Part shown: piece after piece, positions 23,664 through 31,659 of the stretch
Layout: each line of letters starts with the position of its first letter
Position numbering within the stretch: the stretch's first letter is position 1
NCBI GenBank assembly: GCA_019636795.1
Contig: JAHBWW010000001.1
Location: forward strand, 496,001-560,000
Length of the DNA stretch: 64,000 nt
Source of the DNA: Phycisphaeraceae bacterium
Lineage (GTDB): Bacteria > Planctomycetota > Phycisphaerae > Phycisphaerales > UBA1924
Direction of reading: 5' to 3'
Position numbers and translations under genes: made by a program
Notes under the pieces: generated by a model
The model's database searches: none
What the model was told of the DNA's origin: nothing
What the model saw: only the letters and a program-made list of their open reading frames with translations

Positions 23664-26600
23664 TCAATCAACTTTGGTCGGCGCGACCGTTGTCTTGCCC
23701 GAAGAGTCTTCCCGAACGATCTGGATTCGGGCGTCAGCCGTACGCAGGTGCAGATCACGCTGTGGGAAGGCGATCTCGACATCGTTTTCGCGGAACGTCT
23801 TGAGAATGCCCATGTGCATCTGGTGTCGCGTGGCGACGAAGTTGCTGATGCTTGCAATATGGCAGCGCACCTCAAAGTTCAGCGTGCTGTCGCCGAAGCC
23901 CAGAAACAGCGCCTGAGGCGGAGGATCGCGCAGCACGAGTGGAATCTGATTCGCAACACGCAACAACAGTTCTACAACCTTGTCAACATCCGAGCCGTAA
24001 CTGACACCGACAGGGATCATGACACGCAGCACCGGATCGGTCAGAGTCCAGTTGATCACCTGATCGGTGATAAACGTGCGGTTGGGAATGATGAGTTCCT
24101 TGCGGTCCCAGTCGGTGATCATGGTTGCCCGCATGCGGATTCGTGTGACGTTGCCCGATACGCCACCCACCGTGACGGTATCGCCAACACGAATCGGCCG
24201 TTCCGCGAGGATAATGAGCCCGGAAACAAAGTTGGCAAAGATCTCCTGAAGTCCGAACGCGAGTCCAAACGTCAGTGCAGCGGCGAGCCATTGGACCTTG
24301 CTCCACGAGATCCCGATGGCGTTGAATGCGATTGTGATGCCCACAATCGCGATGACATATCGAAGGACTGTGCTCAGCGCGTACCGGCTGCCTGCATCAA
24401 GCGGAAGTTGCTGAAGAACGACAATCTCGACCAGTCCCGGAAGGTTGCGAAACGCCAGAATCGTGGCGAGCAGGATGATAAAACCAAGTCCCAGATCGGC
24501 GAGTGTTACGACAACCGCCGAGGTCGCTGGTGACTCAGCTGACGAAGAAACACTGGATATCAAACCGGTCGGAGAGAGGCTCGTCGAACCGCTTGCGGGC
24601 GAAGCGGATGGAGTTGTCGCTGGGGGGGCGTCTGGAGCGTCGGTCGCAAACGGTGCGAGTTCGAGTTCGGGCACCACGCCTTCGCGATCGCCCTGTGCAA
24701 TGTGTATGCGCGGCCAGACTTCAACACGATCGAGCATCTTGAGCGCTGGCAACACCGAAGCCCAGGTCGCGTACAAGCCCAGTACGAGTGAAACAACAAT
24801 GGCCAGGCGAAACAGTTGCTGTGTCTGCGCACTGATGGCGGGGAGATCCAGTTTCTCCTCCTCGATCGGCGCGCCACCTTCGGCACCTGTCGATTCGCCA
24901 CGTGCCTGTTCGCGGCGGCGTCGCGCGTCTTCAATGGCCACCTTGCGCCGGGCGAGAAAGAGCCATCGCTGCAGAAAGGCGTTCATGAGTATCAACGACA
25001 AGATCAGCGCCAGCGTGGCCTGAAACCGCGACTCGAGCTGAACCGCGGTGTAGTGATATCCCAACCACGAAACCGTTGCAAACGACAGGGGCAGCGCCAC
25101 CACCAGAGGGAACCAGACATAGCGCAGTCGATCAATCGCGCCATCAGGATTGCGCTTGCAGTATTCCCCGATCACCGCGCCACGAGGACGAAGCACACGC
25201 TCAAGCCACAATGACAGCAGCACCAACTGAGTCGTGAACGCCAGGCGGCCCAGAGTCGCGACCGATGACTCGACCCCGAGGCGCTCGAAGTATTCCGAAA
25301 CCCCGAAGGCAATCAGCGTCGGCGTAATGAACCAGTGCAGGTGAAGGCGGATCGCGCGCACCGAAGCCGTCGGCCAGCGGAAGTGGGCATCGAGCAATCC
25401 CCCGGGCTGGGCCAAGCGGGAGAGCGTGATCAGTGGCAGACCGAGCAAGGCTGCCGATTGCAGACCGTGCGCCAGTGCGATCGCTGTGGCCCCCTGATCG
25501 ATCGGGCTGGCGCATATCCATCCCAGGTTCCACAGAAACAACGGGAGTGGCAGTGCCATCCCCACCGTCATCGCGAACGCCCGCAGCGTGTGCTCGAACG
25601 AATCCGTCCGGTAACTGCTGACGCTCTTTGCCGTCTCCTTGAGTAACTTGCGGCACCTGCGAGCGACGACAAACGATGCAATCGTGAGGAGCGCTAGCCC
25701 GACCGAAACGTGCGCACGCTTGATGGCCGAACGCCACGTTAGTTCTAAAGCCTGCACCCACGCCGATGGATCGAGCGTCAAGGCGATGGAGTTCGCAAAA
25801 TCCTGCAAGCGTGGCAGCCCATCAACCGACACACTTCGGATCCAGAGGATGCGCTCTTCGATGAATCGCTCGTACGCACTCGCCGCGGCGAGGTATTCCT
25901 GCGTGGTCTCTTCGACCTCGATCAGGAGATTGAAGTGTGTCGTTGCATCTGCTACAAGGCGGTCAAGAGTGTCGCGGCGATTGATGGCCAGCTCACGCGC
26001 GACTGCTTCGATGTCGAGTCGCACCGTCTCCGATTCCACCGGGCCGACTTGTTGCATGAGGGACTCGACGGTCGTGCTGATATCGCCAGCGCCCGACCGC
26101 TCTTCCTGCCGCTCGATGAGTGTGACCTGGGCCTGTTCCAGTTGCTGGCGCGCCGTGCGAAGTGACCGCTTGAGGTCCGACACGTTGGGCAGCATCTCAT
26201 ATTGCCGACGCAGAAGCAGTCCCGTTGCCCGGTTCAGCCCGGTCGCCACGATGCGACGCCGCACAGACTGATACCCCTCGCGCATCGCTGCCAATCCCAC
26301 TCGCATCTGCCGCAGGTCCTCGGTATCCTGGTCGATGCGTTGCGTGGTGCCCTCGCGGCCGACCCGCAGGTCAGCCAATTCCTTGTTCCTGTCCGCAAAT
26401 TCCTGAAGCACCGGATGCTGGCGGGCCGCCTCGCGGCGCAATCGCTCGGCTTCGAGTGCAGCAGCCTGCGCTTCGAGTTGTCGCCGATCGCTCACAAGCC
26501 GCTGAAAAATCTCAATCAATTTCTCAGCGTTTCCGACCTGTCGCAAGGCCCGGTCTCGCCGCGCTGGTGTGATGTCTCGCCGCGCGTCATAGCACCGCAC

Positions 26601-27269
26601 CTCAGCCTCGAGCGCCTCGATCTCACGCATCGCAGCCATACGTTGCGCCTGAGCAGCCACGCGCCGCGCCTCGATCACCAGGCTCGGCTCGGCAGTAGCA
26701 AGCCCCCGAATGTCCTGATCCAACTCCGCGACACGTGTTCGCAATTGTGAGACCAGATCCTGTGCCACAGGACGACGTTCCACACGCCGCGATGACTCGT
26801 TCTGCCAGTACTCTGCCTGCTGGCGTGCGGCTGCCAGCTCTGCCCGGGCCTGCTCAAGCCCTTGTTCGAGTTGCGACAACGTCGCTTCGGGTGGAATGTT
26901 CGGTCTCGGGTCAGCTGGCGGGGCAGAAAGTTCCGCCCGAATCTGTTCAAGAAACGCTGGAGCCTCGGCGGTCAGTCGATTGAACTCGACCATCCGCGCC
27001 GTTGAATCTTCGAAACGCTGGAGATTCAACAGCGCATCACGAAACCGTTCGAGAATGGCTGTCCGAGTCGCCTCGTCAATCTCGGTCGCCTGCTCGAAAT
27101 GCGCGATGCGGGATTGAATGAACTCGGTCGAGATTGCCGGTTGCTCGGGCAGAACCTCTGGTTGAGTCGCCCGGGCGCCAGCCGAGAACACGGGCACCGT
27201 CAGCGCGAGAACGAGCACCAGCGCCCGCACCATTGCCATCACCGCGTACATTTCTGCATACTTCTTCAT
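23664..27269 (-). CDS. Large mechanosensitive ion channel, MscS/MscK type
   Basis: A 1201-aa protein with a signal peptide (VRALVLVLALTVPVFSAGARA). Next comes a large periplasmic region to about residue 480, rich in Glu/Arg/Leu coiled coil. About ten membrane helices follow, and then the MscS pore and beta domain: FGLAFGLQEIFANFVSGLIIL (pore helix) and IRVGDTVTVGGVSGNVTRI ... NRTFITDQVINWTL. The architecture is that of MscK/MscM channels (about 1100 aa in E. coli), which open under membrane tension to relieve hypo-osmotic shock. A low-complexity Pro/Ser/Ala loop (about residues 880-920) sits before the pore domain. It is transcribed away from the SAM-riboswitch operon. Confidence 0.9.
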   Translation of the reverse strand: MKKYAEMYAVMAMVRALVLVLALTVPVFSAGARATQPEVLPEQPAISTEFIQSRIAHFEQATEIDEATRTAILERFRDALLNLQRFEDSTARMVEFNRLTAEAPAFLEQIRAELSAPPADPRPNIPPEATLSQLEQGLEQARAELAAARQQAEYWQNESSRRVERRPVAQDLVSQLRTRVAELDQDIRGLATAEPSLVIEARRVAAQAQRMAAMREIEALEAEVRCYDARRDITPARRDRALRQVGNAEKLIEIFQRLVSDRRQLEAQAAALEAERLRREAARQHPVLQEFADRNKELADLRVGREGTTQRIDQDTEDLRQMRVGLAAMREGYQSVRRRIVATGLNRATGLLLRRQYEMLPNVSDLKRSLRTARQQLEQAQVTLIERQEERSGAGDISTTVESLMQQVGPVESETVRLDIEAVARELAINRRDTLDRLVADATTHFNLLIEVEETTQEYLAAASAYERFIEERILWIRSVSVDGLPRLQDFANSIALTLDPSAWVQALELTWRSAIKRAHVSVGLALLTIASFVVARRCRKLLKETAKSVSSYRTDSFEHTLRAFAMTVGMALPLPLFLWNLGWICASPIDQGATAIALAHGLQSAALLGLPLITLSRLAQPGGLLDAHFRWPTASVRAIRLHLHWFITPTLIAFGVSEYFERLGVESSVATLGRLAFTTQLVLLSLWLERVLRPRGAVIGEYCKRNPDGAIDRLRYVWFPLVVALPLSFATVSWLGYHYTAVQLESRFQATLALILSLILMNAFLQRWLFLARRKVAIEDARRRREQARGESTGAEGGAPIEEEKLDLPAISAQTQQLFRLAIVVSLVLGLYATWASVLPALKMLDRVEVWPRIHIAQGDREGVVPELELAPFATDAPDAPPATTPSASPASGSTSLSPTGLISSVSSSAESPATSAVVVTLADLGLGFIILLATILAFRNLPGLVEIVVLQQLPLDAGSRYALSTVLRYVIAIVGITIAFNAIGISWSKVQWLAAALTFGLAFGLQEIFANFVSGLIILAERPIRVGDTVTVGGVSGNVTRIRMRATMITDWDRKELIIPNRTFITDQVINWTLTDPVLRVMIPVGVSYGSDVDKVVELLLRVANQIPLVLRDPPPQALFLGFGDSTLNFEVRCHIASISNFVATRHQMHMGILKTFRENDVEIAFPQRDLHLRTADARIQIVREDSSGKTTVAPTKVD

Positions 27270-27395: not shown

Positions 27396-27423
27396 TTGAC
27401 CACGACGCCAAGCCTGTTACACT
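27396..27423 (+). promoter_or_regulatory. Extended -10 promoter of SAM-riboswitch operon
   Basis: TTGACC (27396-27401), a 16-base spacer and TACACT (27418-27423), with TG one base before the -10 (TGTTACACT). Transcription would start near 27430, just before the first riboswitch helix. Confidence 0.7.
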
Positions 27424-27433
27424 CGCTCCACAT

Positions 27434-27532
27434 GCATCAAGAGTCCCGGGAAGCCTCTCAAAGGTCCCGGGCGGCAACCGAGCAGAAAACCTGCCACGGT
27501 GCCGAGGCCAGCCCCGACGTGGGGAACGATGC
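27434..27532 (+). promoter_or_regulatory. SAM riboswitch (SAM-I clan)
   Basis: An aptamer of about 99 nt. P1 is GCATC (27434-27438) with GATGC (27528-27532). ATCAAGAG follows on the 5' side as in S-box RNAs. CCCGGG ... CCCGGG forms the P2 arm, then comes the conserved GGCAACC, the small P3 arm GCAG-aaaa-CTGC, the conserved GGTGCC, and a P4-like CCCC-gacgt-GGGG. The order matches the SAM-I/SAM-IV clan, which binds S-adenosylmethionine and represses sulfur and methionine genes. The genes downstream (Cys/Met PLP enzyme, aspartokinase-homoserine dehydrogenase, Asd) fit. Which subclass it belongs to was not resolved by eye. Confidence 0.85.
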
Positions 27533-27607
27533 GGGCGGTTCTTTGAACCGTCAAAATAACAGCAGCGACGTTCGCTGCCTCCACGTCGACTCTGGTCCGC
27601 TGTTGGT

Positions 27608-27630
27608 GTCGTGAAAAGGAGTTTCACGAC
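27608..27630 (+). promoter_or_regulatory. Perfect hairpin with Shine-Dalgarno in its loop
   Basis: GTCGTGAAA (27608-27616) is the exact reverse complement of TTTCACGAC (27622-27630). The five-base loop is AGGAG, and the ATG of the PLP-enzyme gene follows immediately at 27631. Two further hairpins lie between this and the aptamer (CGGTTC-TTT-GAACCG at 27536-27550 and GCAGCGA-CGT-TCGCTGC at 27562-27578), neither followed by a T-run. The leader therefore looks like a translational rather than a termination switch; this is inference. Confidence 0.75.
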
Positions 27631-28848
27631 ATGTCCTTTTGCGCCGACCTTTGTTTCGATACCCTCTGTGTCACTGCTGGCCGAACCGCACGCGATGGCG
27701 ACCCACTGGTCACGCCTCTGGTTCAATCCACCACCTTCACTCGCGCCGGCATCACCAGCACCGCGCCGCATGCCTATTCGCGAGTGTCCAACCCCACAGT
27801 CGCAGCCCTCGAATCGGCGATTGGCTCGCTCGAAGACGCTCCTCCAGCTGTGTGTTTCGGTTCCGGGCTAGCCGCTGAGACCGCGCTCTTCCTCGCATTC
27901 CTCCGGGCCGGCGATCATGTCGTCTGCGGCCGACACGTCTATGGCGGAACGTCGCGACTGCTGCGCGATCTCCTCAGCGGGCTTGGCATCACCTGCACAT
28001 TCATCGACTCAACGCGCGTCGACGATCTCGCTGCCGCCCTGACACCCAGCACACGACTCGTCTTTATCGAAACCCCCGCAAACCCAACACTCGAAGTCTC
28101 CGACATCGCCGCGATTGCTGCACTCTCGCATCGCGCCGGCGCACTCCTTGCTGTCGACAACACCTTCCTCACCCCCGTGCTTCAGCAGCCGCTCAATCTG
28201 GGCGCAGATTTTTCTGTCTACTCCACAACCAAGTTCATCGAAGGGCACTCGGCCGCGCTCGGCGGTGCGCTCGTTTCGCGCCATGCCCAGCACCTCGATC
28301 GACTGCGTTTCATTCGCAAATGCACCGGCGCAATCCAGTCGCCACTCAACGCGTGGCTCACGCTTCAGGGCCTGCGCACACTTCCGCTTCGCCTTCGCGC
28401 CCAGTCCGCGACCGCCGCTACCATCGCGTCGTTTCTTGCCGATCATCCCCAGGTCGAACGCGTCTGCTACCCCGGACTGGCGGTTGACGAGCAGGCCACG
28501 ATCGCAGCGCGTCAGCACCTCGGCGCCCACGGCGCAGTCGTCTCCTTCGAACTCGCAGGCGGCCTTGAAGCAGCACACCGCTGCGTCGAACGCCTCAAAC
28601 TCTGCACACTCGTCGAACACGTCGGCTCGGTCGAGACTCTCGTCACCCACTCTGCCACCATGACTCATGCCGACGTGCCACGCGAAGAACGTCTCGCTGT
28701 CGGCATCAGTGACGGGCTAATCCGCATTTCCGTCGGTCTCGAAGCGCCCGACGCCATCATCGCCGATCTCGCACATGCGATCGAAGCCGCCCAGGACATC
28801 GCCACCCCACACATCAGCACAGGAGGCGTCGCATGCACCGCCCGCTGA
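27631..28848 (+). CDS. Cys/Met metabolism PLP-dependent enzyme (cystathionine gamma-synthase / O-acylhomoserine sulfhydrylase type)
   Basis: A 405-aa fold-type I PLP enzyme. Family landmarks are YSRVSNPTVAALE, FGSGLAAETALFL, VYGGTSRLL, FIETPANPTLEVSDI and VDNTFLTPVLQQPL. The Schiff-base lysine is K201 in YSTTKFIEGHS, and HVGSVETLVTHSATMTH is near the C-terminus. It makes or uses cystathionine or homocysteine from activated homoserine in the cytoplasm. Synthase, lyase and sulfhydrylase cannot be told apart by eye. The upstream SAM riboswitch and the downstream aspartate-branch genes favour a biosynthetic role in methionine synthesis. The stop overlaps the next gene by 16 nt. Confidence 0.92.
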   Translation: MSFCADLCFDTLCVTAGRTARDGDPLVTPLVQSTTFTRAGITSTAPHAYSRVSNPTVAALESAIGSLEDAPPAVCFGSGLAAETALFLAFLRAGDHVVCGRHVYGGTSRLLRDLLSGLGITCTFIDSTRVDDLAAALTPSTRLVFIETPANPTLEVSDIAAIAALSHRAGALLAVDNTFLTPVLQQPLNLGADFSVYSTTKFIEGHSAALGGALVSRHAQHLDRLRFIRKCTGAIQSPLNAWLTLQGLRTLPLRLRAQSATAATIASFLADHPQVERVCYPGLAVDEQATIAARQHLGAHGAVVSFELAGGLEAAHRCVERLKLCTLVEHVGSVETLVTHSATMTHADVPREERLAVGISDGLIRISVGLEAPDAIIADLAHAIEAAQDIATPHISTGGVACTAR

Positions 28849-30563
28849 TTGTGCTCAAGCTCGGAGGCTCAGTTCTTACCAGCGAGACAACCCTCCGTCG
28901 AGCTGTTCATGAAATCTACCGGTGGCGTCGCGAAGGCTGGCGCGTCGTCGCGGTCGTCTCAGCGCTGGCTGGCGAGACCGACACGCTGCTCAACGCCGCG
29001 CACCGCGCATGTCCCGATGCCCCTTCCGCTTCCGTTGCAGGGCTTGCCGCCATCGGTGAATCGCGCAGCGCAGCACTGCTCGCGCTCGCGCTCGATCGCG
29101 CAGGCCTGCCCGCTGCAACACTCTCGCCCGCAGCGGTTGGTCTGCGCGCAACCGGCGACCCACGCGACGCCGACCCCGTCGCGCTCGACCGCACCTATTT
29201 TGACGCCTGGTTCGATCGTGATTACGCGATCATTGTTCCGGGTTTCACCGGTATCGATAACCTCGGACGCACCGTCACGCTTGGTCGCGGCGGGTCCGAT
29301 CTCACCGCTCTTCATCTCGCTTACAACCTCGGGGCCGAGTGTTGCCGCCTCGTCAAAGATGTCGATGGCCTGTACGTCTCCGATCCCGCACGGCCAGGCC
29401 CCGAGCCACTTCGCTATGAGCACGCAACGTACGACGACGCGCTCGCAACCGATGGCTCCATCATCCAGCACAAAGCCTTGCGCTACGCAGCCGCCCGCAA
29501 TCTCTCCTTCGAGATCGGCCGCCTCAACGGCACGCGCCCCACACGCATCGGCCCCGGCGAGACTCGCGTCTCGCACAAACACGATCGACCTCATCCCAAG
29601 CGAGTAGCCATCCTCGGGCTCGGCACAGTCGGTCTCGGAGTGTTCGATCTCCTGCAAAGCCTCGAGGACGATGTCGTCATCAGCGCCGTTCTGGCTCGCG
29701 ACCACTCAAAACAACGCAGCATTCACGTTCCAGCCGAGTATTTTGCATCCAGCATCACCAACGCCGTGCGCGACGCCGACATCGTCGTCGAGGTCATCGG
29801 CGGGCTGGAAACCCCGCGTACTGCTCTGCACGCAGCACTCGAACGCAGCGCTTCCGTGGTCACCGCCAACAAAGCCCTCATCGCCAGTGACGGACCACAC
29901 TTGAAGAATCTCGCTCGCGAAAACAACTGCTCGCTTCACGCCTCAGCCTCGGTCGGTGGCAGTGTGCCAGTCCTCGAACGCATCGCCTCACGCCCGGGCC
30001 ATCGTCTGTGCGCCCTGCGTGGCATCCTCAATGGCACCACCAACTTTATCCTCGATCAACTCGCACAAGGCCAATCCATCGAGGCCGCCATCATCGCCGC
30101 CCAGGCACTCGGGTTTGCCGAAGCCGATCCTTCACGCGATCTCCTCGGCATCGACGCAGCCGAGAAACTCTGCGTCATCGCGCAACACGAAGCAGTCAAT
30201 GCTCACCTCACGCTCGACTCTGTTGCCATTGAATCGCTCGCCGATGGCTTGCGCCGCCTCGGCCCGCCAAAACCCGCCCGCAACGTGCGCCATCTCGCAA
30301 CATTGTCACTTGACCATGAAGGCAGTATCACTGCACAAGTCGGTCTCGCTCTGATTGATGCGGGCGACCCGCTCGCCGCTATTCATGGCTCCGGTAACGC
30401 CGTCGAACTGATCTGGGACGACGGAGTGCGCGAGTTCATCTCGGGCCGCGGAGCAGGGCGATGGCCCACAGCCGAAGCCGTCGTTGCCGATGTGCTCACC
30501 CTCTGTCGCCAGCAGCGCGACGTCGACTCAGCACTCATCGCCCGTGAGGTGCAGCATGCCTGA
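28833..30563 (+). CDS. Bifunctional aspartokinase-homoserine dehydrogenase lacking ACT domains
   Basis: A 576-aa fusion. The N-terminal aspartokinase part (to about residue 240) has VLKLGGSVLT, VGLRATGDPRDADPV, TLGRGGSDLTALHLA and LVKDVDGLYVSDP. It is followed directly by homoserine dehydrogenase, with VAILGLGTVGLGVFDLL (NAD(P) motif), VVTANKALIAS, the catalytic-domain NGTTNFIL and GFAEADPSRDLLGIDAAEKL. Classical ThrA/MetL fusions are about 810-820 aa, with two ACT domains between the halves; none fits here. Feedback inhibition by threonine or lysine through ACT domains is therefore unlikely, and control probably comes from the SAM riboswitch. It overlaps both neighbours. Confidence 0.92.
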   Translation: MHRPLIVLKLGGSVLTSETTLRRAVHEIYRWRREGWRVVAVVSALAGETDTLLNAAHRACPDAPSASVAGLAAIGESRSAALLALALDRAGLPAATLSPAAVGLRATGDPRDADPVALDRTYFDAWFDRDYAIIVPGFTGIDNLGRTVTLGRGGSDLTALHLAYNLGAECCRLVKDVDGLYVSDPARPGPEPLRYEHATYDDALATDGSIIQHKALRYAAARNLSFEIGRLNGTRPTRIGPGETRVSHKHDRPHPKRVAILGLGTVGLGVFDLLQSLEDDVVISAVLARDHSKQRSIHVPAEYFASSITNAVRDADIVVEVIGGLETPRTALHAALERSASVVTANKALIASDGPHLKNLARENNCSLHASASVGGSVPVLERIASRPGHRLCALRGILNGTTNFILDQLAQGQSIEAAIIAAQALGFAEADPSRDLLGIDAAEKLCVIAQHEAVNAHLTLDSVAIESLADGLRRLGPPKPARNVRHLATLSLDHEGSITAQVGLALIDAGDPLAAIHGSGNAVELIWDDGVREFISGRGAGRWPTAEAVVADVLTLCRQQRDVDSALIAREVQHA

Positions 30564-31659
30564 AACACCCACCATCGCCATCATCGGTGCCACCGGTGCC
30601 GTCGGACGCGAAGCCTTGGCCATTCTCGCAGAACTCCATTGGCCGATCGATCGTGTCATCGCTGTGGCCTCTGCTCGTTCAGCCGGATCATTGCTTCCGT
30701 TTGGCCAAAGCGAGATTCACGTCGAGGAGTTCAATCTCGACCGTCTCGATCGAGCAGCCTGCGCAATCCTCTGCACCGATGCAGCCCTCTCGCGCGAGTA
30801 TGCCCCACGTCTGGTTGACCGGGGCATTGTCGTGATCGACAATTCTTCTGCTTTTCGCTTGGATCCGCGCGTGCCTCTCGTCGTCCCCGAAATCAACGCT
30901 GGCGCAATAGCCCCCGACGCCCTGTTGATTGCCAACCCCAACTGCTCGACCATCATCATGCTTCTTGCCCTTGAGCCGCTGCGAAAACGATTCGGTATCG
31001 ATGAAGTCATCGTCTCGACCTACCAGGCCGTCTCGGGTGCCGGCATCGCGGGCATCGATGAACTGCACGAGCAGACCCGCGCCTCACTCGAGGGTCGTCA
31101 TGTGCCGCCGTCTGTGTTTCCTCACTCGTGCGCATTCAATGTGTTTCCGCACGAGTCCACGCTCGATCCCGACACTGGCCGCAACGGCGAAGAGGTCAAG
31201 ATGATCGCCGAAGCTCAGCGAATCTGGGATCACCCCAGCCTGAGCGTCATCCCCACCTGCGTGCGTGTTCCTGTCGTGCGTGCGCACAGCCAGTCGATTC
31301 TCGTTACGCTTCGCACGCCCGCAACGCTCGCCGACGTGCGTACCGCGATCGGTGCAGGCCCGGGCCTTCGTGTTGTGGATGATTGGGCCAACGCAATTTT
31401 CCCCACGCCTATCGACGCTTCAGGGGGCAACGATGTCCTCGTCGGTCGTGTGCGCAAAGTCGACGCTTCCGAGCAACCGCACACACCGACACGCCGCTTT
31501 CAGGTCTGGGCCTGTGGCGATCAACTCCGCAAAGGGGCCGCCCTCAACGCACTTCAGATCGCCCAGCATCAACTCACTGCGCGCCCGCCTGAGCGCAGAC
31601 ATCAACCGCGATCGACAAACCCGCAACATGCCCACTCGCCCACGCCCATTGAAAGTTGA
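30556..31659 (+). CDS. asd: Aspartate-semialdehyde dehydrogenase
   Basis: A 367-aa enzyme making aspartate semialdehyde from aspartyl phosphate with NADPH, the step between the two activities of the preceding fusion protein. It has IAIIGATGAVGREAL (NADP motif), DNSSAFRLDPRVPLVVPEIN, the catalytic Cys130 in NPNCSTI, the AVSGAGIAGIDEL segment and VRVPVVRAHSQS with the catalytic His. The ATG at 30556 overlaps the preceding stop by 8 nt. The C-terminal 25 residues are Pro/His-rich, non-conserved and antisense to the end of the convergent flavoprotein gene. It is the last gene of the riboswitch operon. Confidence 0.95.
   Translation: MPETPTIAIIGATGAVGREALAILAELHWPIDRVIAVASARSAGSLLPFGQSEIHVEEFNLDRLDRAACAILCTDAALSREYAPRLVDRGIVVIDNSSAFRLDPRVPLVVPEINAGAIAPDALLIANPNCSTIIMLLALEPLRKRFGIDEVIVSTYQAVSGAGIAGIDELHEQTRASLEGRHVPPSVFPHSCAFNVFPHESTLDPDTGRNGEEVKMIAEAQRIWDHPSLSVIPTCVRVPVVRAHSQSILVTLRTPATLADVRTAIGAGPGLRVVDDWANAIFPTPIDASGGNDVLVGRVRKVDASEQPHTPTRRFQVWACGDQLRKGAALNALQIAQHQLTARPPERRHQPRSTNPQHAHSPTPIES

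Follow-up and report, generated by a model that had tools for sequence, protein, structure and literature searches.

Why should a Shine-Dalgarno (SD) sequence form the whole loop of a perfect hairpin that runs directly into the start codon of a methionine gene? The question arose in a stretch of 64,000 nucleotides from a Phycisphaeraceae bacterium, which is referred to below as the window. A 9-bp stem with AGGAG as its entire loop, touching the ATG, had been described in the first-pass annotation, and the description was exact at 27608-27630. The arrangement had also been called unlikely by chance. A simple composition-based calculation agreed, giving an expectation of 0.0017 such hairpins per window, and on the two strands of the 64 kb it was the only case in which a Watson-Crick stem of 9 bp encloses an SD-like loop of 4-7 nt and adjoins an ATG. 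In folding, the pairs U27607-A27631 and G27606-U27632 extended the nine perfect pairs to 11, so that the A and U of the AUG can lie within the stem. The folding z-score was -3.4 for positions 27556-27660 and -5.0 for 27429-27660. Compared with this composition argument, the conservation of the hairpin with compensatory changes, as read from the aligned leaders described below, is the stronger argument against chance. The features of the locus are listed in Table 1.

Table 1. Predicted and directly read features of the leader and the downstream genes (positions in the window).
Feature	Position	Strand	Basis or remark
Promoter-like site TTGACC-16-TACACT	27396..27423	+	promoter prediction; transcription start predicted at ~27430
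SAM-I/IV riboswitch aptamer	27429..27568	+	Rfam RF01725, 43.5 bits (gathering 41.1)
GCATCAAGAG, P1 5' strand (27434-27438) and J1/2; also AS1 5' strand	27434..27443	+	
GGCCAG (J3/4), AS2 5' strand	27506..27511	+	folding, covariation
GACGTGGGG, P4 loop and P4 3' strand; AS3 5' strand	27516..27524	+	
GATGC, P1 3' strand; identical to the usual platform strand of relatives	27528..27532	+	alignment A3
Hairpin after P1 (P5-like), then AAAA	27534..27552	+	folding
Linker hairpin GCAGCGA-CGT-TCGCTGC	27562..27578	+	folding
CTCCACGTC, AS3 3' strand (partner 27516-27524)	27579..27587	+	folding, covariation
CTGGTC, AS2 3' strand (partner 27506-27511)	27592..27597	+	folding, covariation
CTGTTGGTGT, AS1 3' strand	27600..27609	+	9 of 10 pairs with 27434-27443, including G-U
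Full SD hairpin (stem 27606-27616 with 27622-27632, loop 27617-27621)	27606..27632	+	folding, covariation
SD hairpin, left arm GTCGTGAAA	27608-27616	+	sequence read directly
SD loop AGGAG	27617-27621	+	sequence read directly
SD hairpin, right arm TTTCACGAC	27622-27630	+	sequence read directly
ATG of the regulated gene	27631-27633	+	adjoins right arm at 27630
Regulated gene, Cys/Met-metabolism PLP enzyme (MetZ/MetB-like)	27631..28848	+	domain matches
Aspartate kinase-homoserine dehydrogenase fusion	28833..30563	+	domain matches; overlaps preceding gene
asd, aspartate-semialdehyde dehydrogenase	30559..31659	+	start chosen within longer ORF; overlaps preceding gene

An aptamer and the hairpin together precede a methionine/threonine operon. 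RF01725 was the one Rfam family found at its gathering threshold in the whole 64-kb window; the same positions also matched the SAM family (RF00162), below the cut-off of that family. The search of the 3.49-Mb genome returned no further SAM-I/IV aptamer, and the copy in the window is thus the only match. P2 of this aptamer is a single hairpin without an internal loop of the SAM-I or SAM-IV type, a trait of RF01725, and the aptamer presumably binds SAM. Riboswitches of the SAM-I/IV class form a pseudoknot between the P3 loop and the tail that follows the P1 and P5 hairpins. A P3 loop-tail pseudoknot is described for SAM-IV in PMC6890682; in the window aptamer, no clear partner for the PK-2 pseudoknot was seen by eye. 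The predicted transcription start places the 5' strand of the aptamer near the 5' end of the mRNA, and a -10-like hexamer ending 2-13 nt upstream of P1 was found in 52 of 72 orthologues compared with 6 of 72 in a control stretch. Many relatives also carry a hairpin of varied sequence at the position of the linker hairpin (by eye). Among the operon genes, the 576-aa fusion protein gave Pfam matches to the kinase and dehydrogenase domains and none to an ACT domain (E <= 0.001), and end-product control may therefore rest on the riboswitch. The divergent neighbour (23664-27269, minus strand) encodes a large protein with matches to MscK/MscM mechanosensitive channels below their cut-offs.

The conservation of the arrangement was assessed in relatives. 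Among 163 genomes of the same family, 89 had a protein match at E <= 1e-105, and the addition of one genome of the same order gave 90 leaders. The 5' motif of the aptamer was present in 82 of the 90, and motif and hairpin together in 72. The motif was detected by sequence pattern rather than by Rfam, which among 150 relatives gave 20 matches at E <= 0.001 and only 11 above the gathering cut-off; the aptamers of most orthologues were thus recognised through sequence anchors. For a hairpin to be counted, it had to lie no more than 3 nt before the in-frame ATG with a GG in or beside its loop. The distance from the first base of the aptamer to the ATG of the hairpin was 182-327 nt (median 209.5), with 62 of the 72 leaders between 180 and 225 nt. 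The GG lay wholly within the loop as found in 44 of the 72, and in most of the others at the loop edge or in the closing pairs; the 72 include L051, whose SD is in the stem. One or two extra bases separated stem and ATG in 13 of 62 aligned leaders.

Close relatives mostly keep the stem, in favour of the first-pass annotation: the hairpin search accepted 72 of the 82 orthologues that bear the aptamer, and the ten others (L030, L084, L065, L067, L103, L107, L055, L063, L064 and L114) mostly appeared by eye to have variant hairpins. In L030, two bases separate the hairpin from the AUG; the stem of L084 is 7 bp long, and its 11-nt loop exceeds the limit of the search; L065, L067, L103 and L107 carry variant hairpins; L055 and L063 have arms beside or near the ATG (by eye); and L064 and L114 gave no clear picture. 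The eight leaders without the aptamer motif were L041, L048, L062, L069, L071, L072, L073 and L104, of which L071 is a short stretch at a contig end. When these eight were searched with Rfam together with L055, L063, L064, L084 and L114 (E <= 0.01), the only SAM match was a weak one of the SAM-I type in L104; the five motif-bearing loci gave none up to this E-value. In L041 (genome G022), Rfam matched a tRNA upstream of the gene, at locus positions 1183-1256. A scan of GTDB contigs extended the distribution: among the matches listed, 44 of 80 loci were labelled Phycisphaer-, many others Planctomycetota and some Acidobacteria. Eighteen of these 80 listed loci were new and carried the motif, and 13 of the 18 showed the usual arrangement by eye; L126 and L128 did not, and L169, L170 and L177 were variants.

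The hairpin was conserved as a structure while its sequence varied. Sixteen different 6-bp stems occurred among 70 hairpins, which were selected as hairpins and hence pair by construction; L051, L066 and L068 were left out of this set because they use other registers, and L048, in which no aptamer motif was found, was kept. We aligned 62 distinct leaders with a hairpin, each of at most 235 nt, with MAFFT (alignment A3). The stem was paired in 97.7% of cells compared with 23-46% when the partner was slid, percentages that are inflated because the search favours hairpins and requires the GG. Two-sided changes occurred in five of the ten pairs, in 23 cells compared with 5.9 after shuffling (0/500), and the compensatory changes that the first-pass annotation had proposed to look for in homologous leaders were therefore present. 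Changes were also counted on a tree for which the remainder of the leader was used. The pair 311-332 had four changes on one side and seven on the other, one of them in the paired state, and the pair 313-330 had six and seven, two of them in the paired state. The hairpin stem has changed several times independently on this tree. The platform strand, which leads into the hairpin, was complementary to the A and U of the AUG in all 62 aligned leaders.

The sequence of the platform strand connects the hairpin with the aptamer. In most relatives this strand reads (CUC)UUGAUGC, and in the window CUGUUGGUGU. The hairpin needs only its last bases, and bases outside the hairpin were also conserved: G at -3 in 69 of 72 leaders, U at -5 in 63 of 72, and U or C at -4 in 46 and 21 of 72, respectively. 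The platform strand is the complement of the aptamer 5' end GCAUCAAGAG, that is, of the P1 5' strand and J1/2, and we named the resulting helix AS1. The last 4 nt of its 3' strand in the window are the start of the SD hairpin. Over the six AS1 bases outside the hairpin, a mean of 4.70 of 6 pairs formed at the true register compared with 1.3-2.5 at 12 other registers (69 leaders, a different set from the 69 used for the folding comparison below). Mismatches fell at three AS1 positions, in 22, 17 and 29 of 62 leaders.

AS1 can hardly covary because the aptamer 5' end is nearly invariant, three lineages excepted. In these (L065, L067 and L195), the start region is CCAUG instead of GCAUG, the platform (A/G)UGG instead of AUGC, and the aptamer CCAU instead of GCAU. 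L195 retains GAUGC as its P1 3' strand; its aptamer base thus agrees with the platform but gives up one P1 pair, and the contig ends within the gene that follows. In a pattern search of the 163 genomes, these three were the only aptamers with a base other than G before CAUY; the UCAUC variants L057, L098 and L101, which have CAGCAACC, were missed by this search. In the CCAUG lineages a pairing of CAUGG with CCAUG is also possible, and it would occlude the AUG with no need for the switching strand. L177 (Acidobacteria bacterium Mor1) and L169 appeared by eye to follow the same logic in another register: the 5' strand of the hairpin, CUUGG, pairs with CCAAG shortly upstream of CAUG and complements CAAG of the aptamer. 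In L169 the SD can pair with CUCC rather than form the loop (by eye). Another family of the same order carries tandem SAM-I/IV-like aptamers ~110 nt apart (L007/L022 in G090, L009 in G126 and L010 in G134), with two Rfam matches in G090 and the second copy recognised by eye in L009 and L010. The spacer between them contains CUCUUGA(UG), which complements the 5' end of the first aptamer (UCAAGAGCAG with CUGCUCUUGA in L007) and resembles an AS1 strand (both by eye).

Two further helices were found between the aptamer and the platform. In the minimum-energy fold of the window leader, GGCCAG of J3/4 pairs with CUGGUC (AS2), and GACGUGGGG, comprising the P4 loop and 3' strand, pairs with CUCCACGUC (AS3). 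Anchor parsing succeeded in 79 of the 82 leaders and failed in L057, L098 and L101, which have CAGCAACC in place of GGCAACC; for AS3, 75 of the 79 were used (L055, L063, L064 and L114 were dropped), and the 70 distinct ones were permuted. In statistics that ignore the relatedness of the leaders, the score of AS3 with its own partner was 19.8 compared with 17.1 for permuted partners (sd 0.31; 70 leaders), and that of AS2 was 12.45 compared with 10.95 (sd 0.25; 62 leaders; 0/5000). With one leader per genus, the scores were 19.9 versus 17.9 for AS3 (36 leaders; 0/5000) and 12.0 versus 10.8 for AS2 (0/5000). Covarying examples of AS3 were GGCAUGG/CCAUGCC in L076, L079 and L082 with GGCGUGG/CCACGCC elsewhere, UGCGAGGGG/CCCCUCGCA in L068 and CAACGUGGGG/CCCCACGUUG in L046; those of AS2 were GGAACUC/GAGUUCC in L046 and AGGCUAGC/GCUAGCCU in L094.

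On alignment A3, the three AS helices together were paired in 79.1% of cells compared with 34-48% when slid and 75.9% when shuffled, and had 45 two-sided cells compared with 20.0 after shuffling (0/500). The number of AS pairs with a two-sided change (10) was not in excess of the shuffles on the same alignment (210/500), and AS2 was the weakest helix, with 64.7% of cells paired. P1 and P4 were paired in 95.2% of cells without covariation, as would be expected of P1 if it is pinned by other demands. We considered AS3 as a short, loop-only pseudoknot compatible with P4; since the best helix enters the P4 3' strand by 2-4 nt in leaders with the usual P4, it was treated as probably anti-aptamer.

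Based on these results, we consider it probable that a SAM-I/IV riboswitch controls translation here by strand exchange and that the hairpin serves as the OFF arm of its expression platform. Without SAM, the platform strand would pair with the aptamer 5' end GCAUCAAGAG as AS1, helped by the nested AS2 and AS3, which would disrupt J3/4 and P4; the AUG would be free, and metZ and the overlapping downstream genes would be translated. With SAM bound, P1 and P4 would keep their strands, and the platform strand would pair instead with the start-codon region, add four pairs to the SD hairpin and close the AUG. The first-pass annotation had suggested the output of a SAM riboswitch as one possibility. 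It is supported by the conservation and covariation of the hairpin, by its ATG 182-327 nt past the first base of the aptamer, and by the strand that the hairpin has in common with the anti-aptamer pairing. The polarity (on without SAM, off with SAM) is likely, judging from the function of the genes and from SAM-I precedents; SAM represses methionine genes elsewhere as a general rule. The controlled step would be translation rather than mRNA decay.

The folds agreed with this reading in most respects. AS1, AS2 and AS3 nest and are mutually exclusive with P1, P4 and the ligand-binding core, and AS1 takes up the bases that open the extended SD hairpin. Two exclusive structures, one of them hiding the initiation site, were thus found in silico. 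Their ligand-free energies were nearly equal: the AS1 fold had the lower energy in 46 of 69 leaders and was favoured on average by 1.66 kcal/mol, a balance that the ligand could tip. The mean unpaired probability of the AUG rose from 0.32 in the fold with P1 and hairpin to 0.55 in the AS1 fold (69 leaders); the value was higher with AS1 in 55 of them and lower in 14. In the AS1 state, a residual hairpin of 6-7 bp with the SD in its loop can persist; in the window, the hairpin energy was -13.9 kcal/mol for the full form and -6.6 kcal/mol for the residual form after removal of the shared strand. As drawn, the SD is in or at the loop in both states, which indicates that the gate acts on the AUG. 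The first-pass annotation's alternative of a presentation of the SD accordingly stands in part: relatives have the SD inside the loop or at its margin, but the part that switches is the stem base, where the A and U of the AUG lie. The mean unpaired probability of the SD fell from 0.65 in the P1 state to 0.48 in the AS1 state (69 leaders), and in the window the pairing of AAAAGGA with the first codons took it from 1.00 to 0.07. A predicted ON state with a buried SD is awkward for the model and counts against it.

We lean by a narrow margin towards a stricter joint reading, in which the platform GAUGC would pair with both the aptamer 5' end and the start codon (GCAUG), the fixed AUG would set the sequence of P1, and the SD would always be in the loop with only the AUG gated. 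Start codon, platform and sensor would then evolve as one three-way pairing unit.

The same hairpin could instead be a constitutive stand-by site that loops out the SD at a fixed distance from the AUG and sets or raises translation without any SAM switching. The SD-like purines in or at the loop of relatives fit such a site, although they are partly a search criterion, and so does the covariation of upper stem pairs untouched by AS1 (columns 311-314). However, the conserved upstream U-5, U/C-4 and G-3 match the aptamer 5' end in one register only, a platform that complements the AU of the AUG in every one of the 62 aligned leaders would be odd for a stand-by site, and the concerted CCAU changes in aptamer, platform and start argue against it; AS1 and the closed AUG would be left unexplained. 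We therefore regard this explanation as unlikely. A reversed polarity, in which SAM turns expression on and the AS1 state is the closed one, is somewhat less likely still. In silico, the SD is indeed on average less accessible in the AS1-forced fold than in the P1 fold, and the CCAUG lineages could form the CAUGG/CCAUG hairpin in the AS1 state, but the genes make methionine precursors, for which repression by SAM is the rule, 55 of 69 leaders have a more open AUG with AS1 formed, and in the window the full hairpin exceeds the residual one in stability by 7 kcal/mol.

As general explanations, three other readings were discarded, since each depends on an element that is not maintained among the orthologues. 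An intrinsic terminator, formed by the hairpin and the U-rich UCCUUUU, was listed in the window by a terminator scan; a U-rich tail occurs in only 5 of 72 orthologues, and the AUG directly adjoins the hairpin and lies inside the extended stem, which makes transcription termination here very improbable. Repression by CsrA, bound to the GGA in the loop over the SD, seems equally far-fetched. The genome has two CsrA-family matches, and GGA is in the loop region of 67 of 72 orthologues, but GGA is expected from the SD itself and is missing from 5 of 72. The CsrA consensus has ANGGA in the loop, a core that only 26 of 72 possess, and AS1-AS3 would go unexplained. Third, the platform strand carries an upstream ORF of two codons (A/GUG-NNN-stop) in 47 of 72 orthologues and lacks it in 25; the ORF overlaps the 5' arm of the hairpin and reads GUG UCG UGA in the window.

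If the SAM-I/IV strand-exchange reading is right, the near-invariant P1 of the group (GCAUC/GAUGC) may be explained by its need to match a platform that must itself match the start codon. A translational switch that apparently gates the AUG and leaves the SD in a loop would make SD docking and AUG accessibility separable in one natural RNA. For the SAM-I/IV class, the locus would also supply a further expression platform, one whose anti-aptamer helices a planctomycete family has conserved. Anti-AUG strands have been described before, as have translational SAM switches and SAM-I/IV aptamers; in the open literature, no published description of this platform was found by title or abstract start among the matches listed. 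In two loci of the same order (L002 in G144 and L004 in G132), the aptamer tail leads by eye directly into a terminator-like hairpin, ACGAAGC...GCUUCGUUUUUG, and that family therefore seems to combine this aptamer class with control by transcription termination.

Like the SAM-I/IV family (RF01725; Weinberg 2010, PMC2864571), the window aptamer has a P2 without internal loop and a hairpin after P1. The RF01725 consensus tail has an SD-like 'aaggaguu' directly after the aptamer, whereas the window has there a linker hairpin and a long strand-exchange platform. As in the strand-exchange riboswitches (PMC10907184) and the P1-helix-regulated riboswitches (PMC11477058), the ligand would stabilise the aptamer and a switching strand would have two exclusive partners. 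The defining trait of the P1-helix-regulated class, as given in PMC11477058, is that the P1 3' strand forms the exclusive structure. Unlike in that class, the P1 5' strand is the shared one in the window; it lies near the mRNA 5' end and pairs, over ~160 nt, with a platform strand that repeats the sequence of the P1 3' strand. The closest precedent is the SAM-I riboswitch of the Xanthomonas campestris met operon (SAM-IXcc, PMC7270179). According to that paper, the SAM-bound state hides the SD and AUG in a platform hairpin, and an 'anti-AUG' sequence is described; without SAM, the AUG is exposed and the SD is still in a short hairpin. An anti-SD strand pairs with the SD in SAM-IXcc, and uncharged initiator tRNA helps to free it. 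Both systems, the window by prediction, are translational SAM switches before met genes, and the paradox of a free AUG beside an SD held in a hairpin without SAM, resolved in SAM-IXcc by uncharged tRNA, resembles the AS1 state of the window. The SAM-IXcc aptamer belongs to SAM-I and to another phylum, whereas the window aptamer is SAM-I/IV-like; and unlike in SAM-IXcc, the SD of the window forms the loop, with no anti-SD strand seen there.
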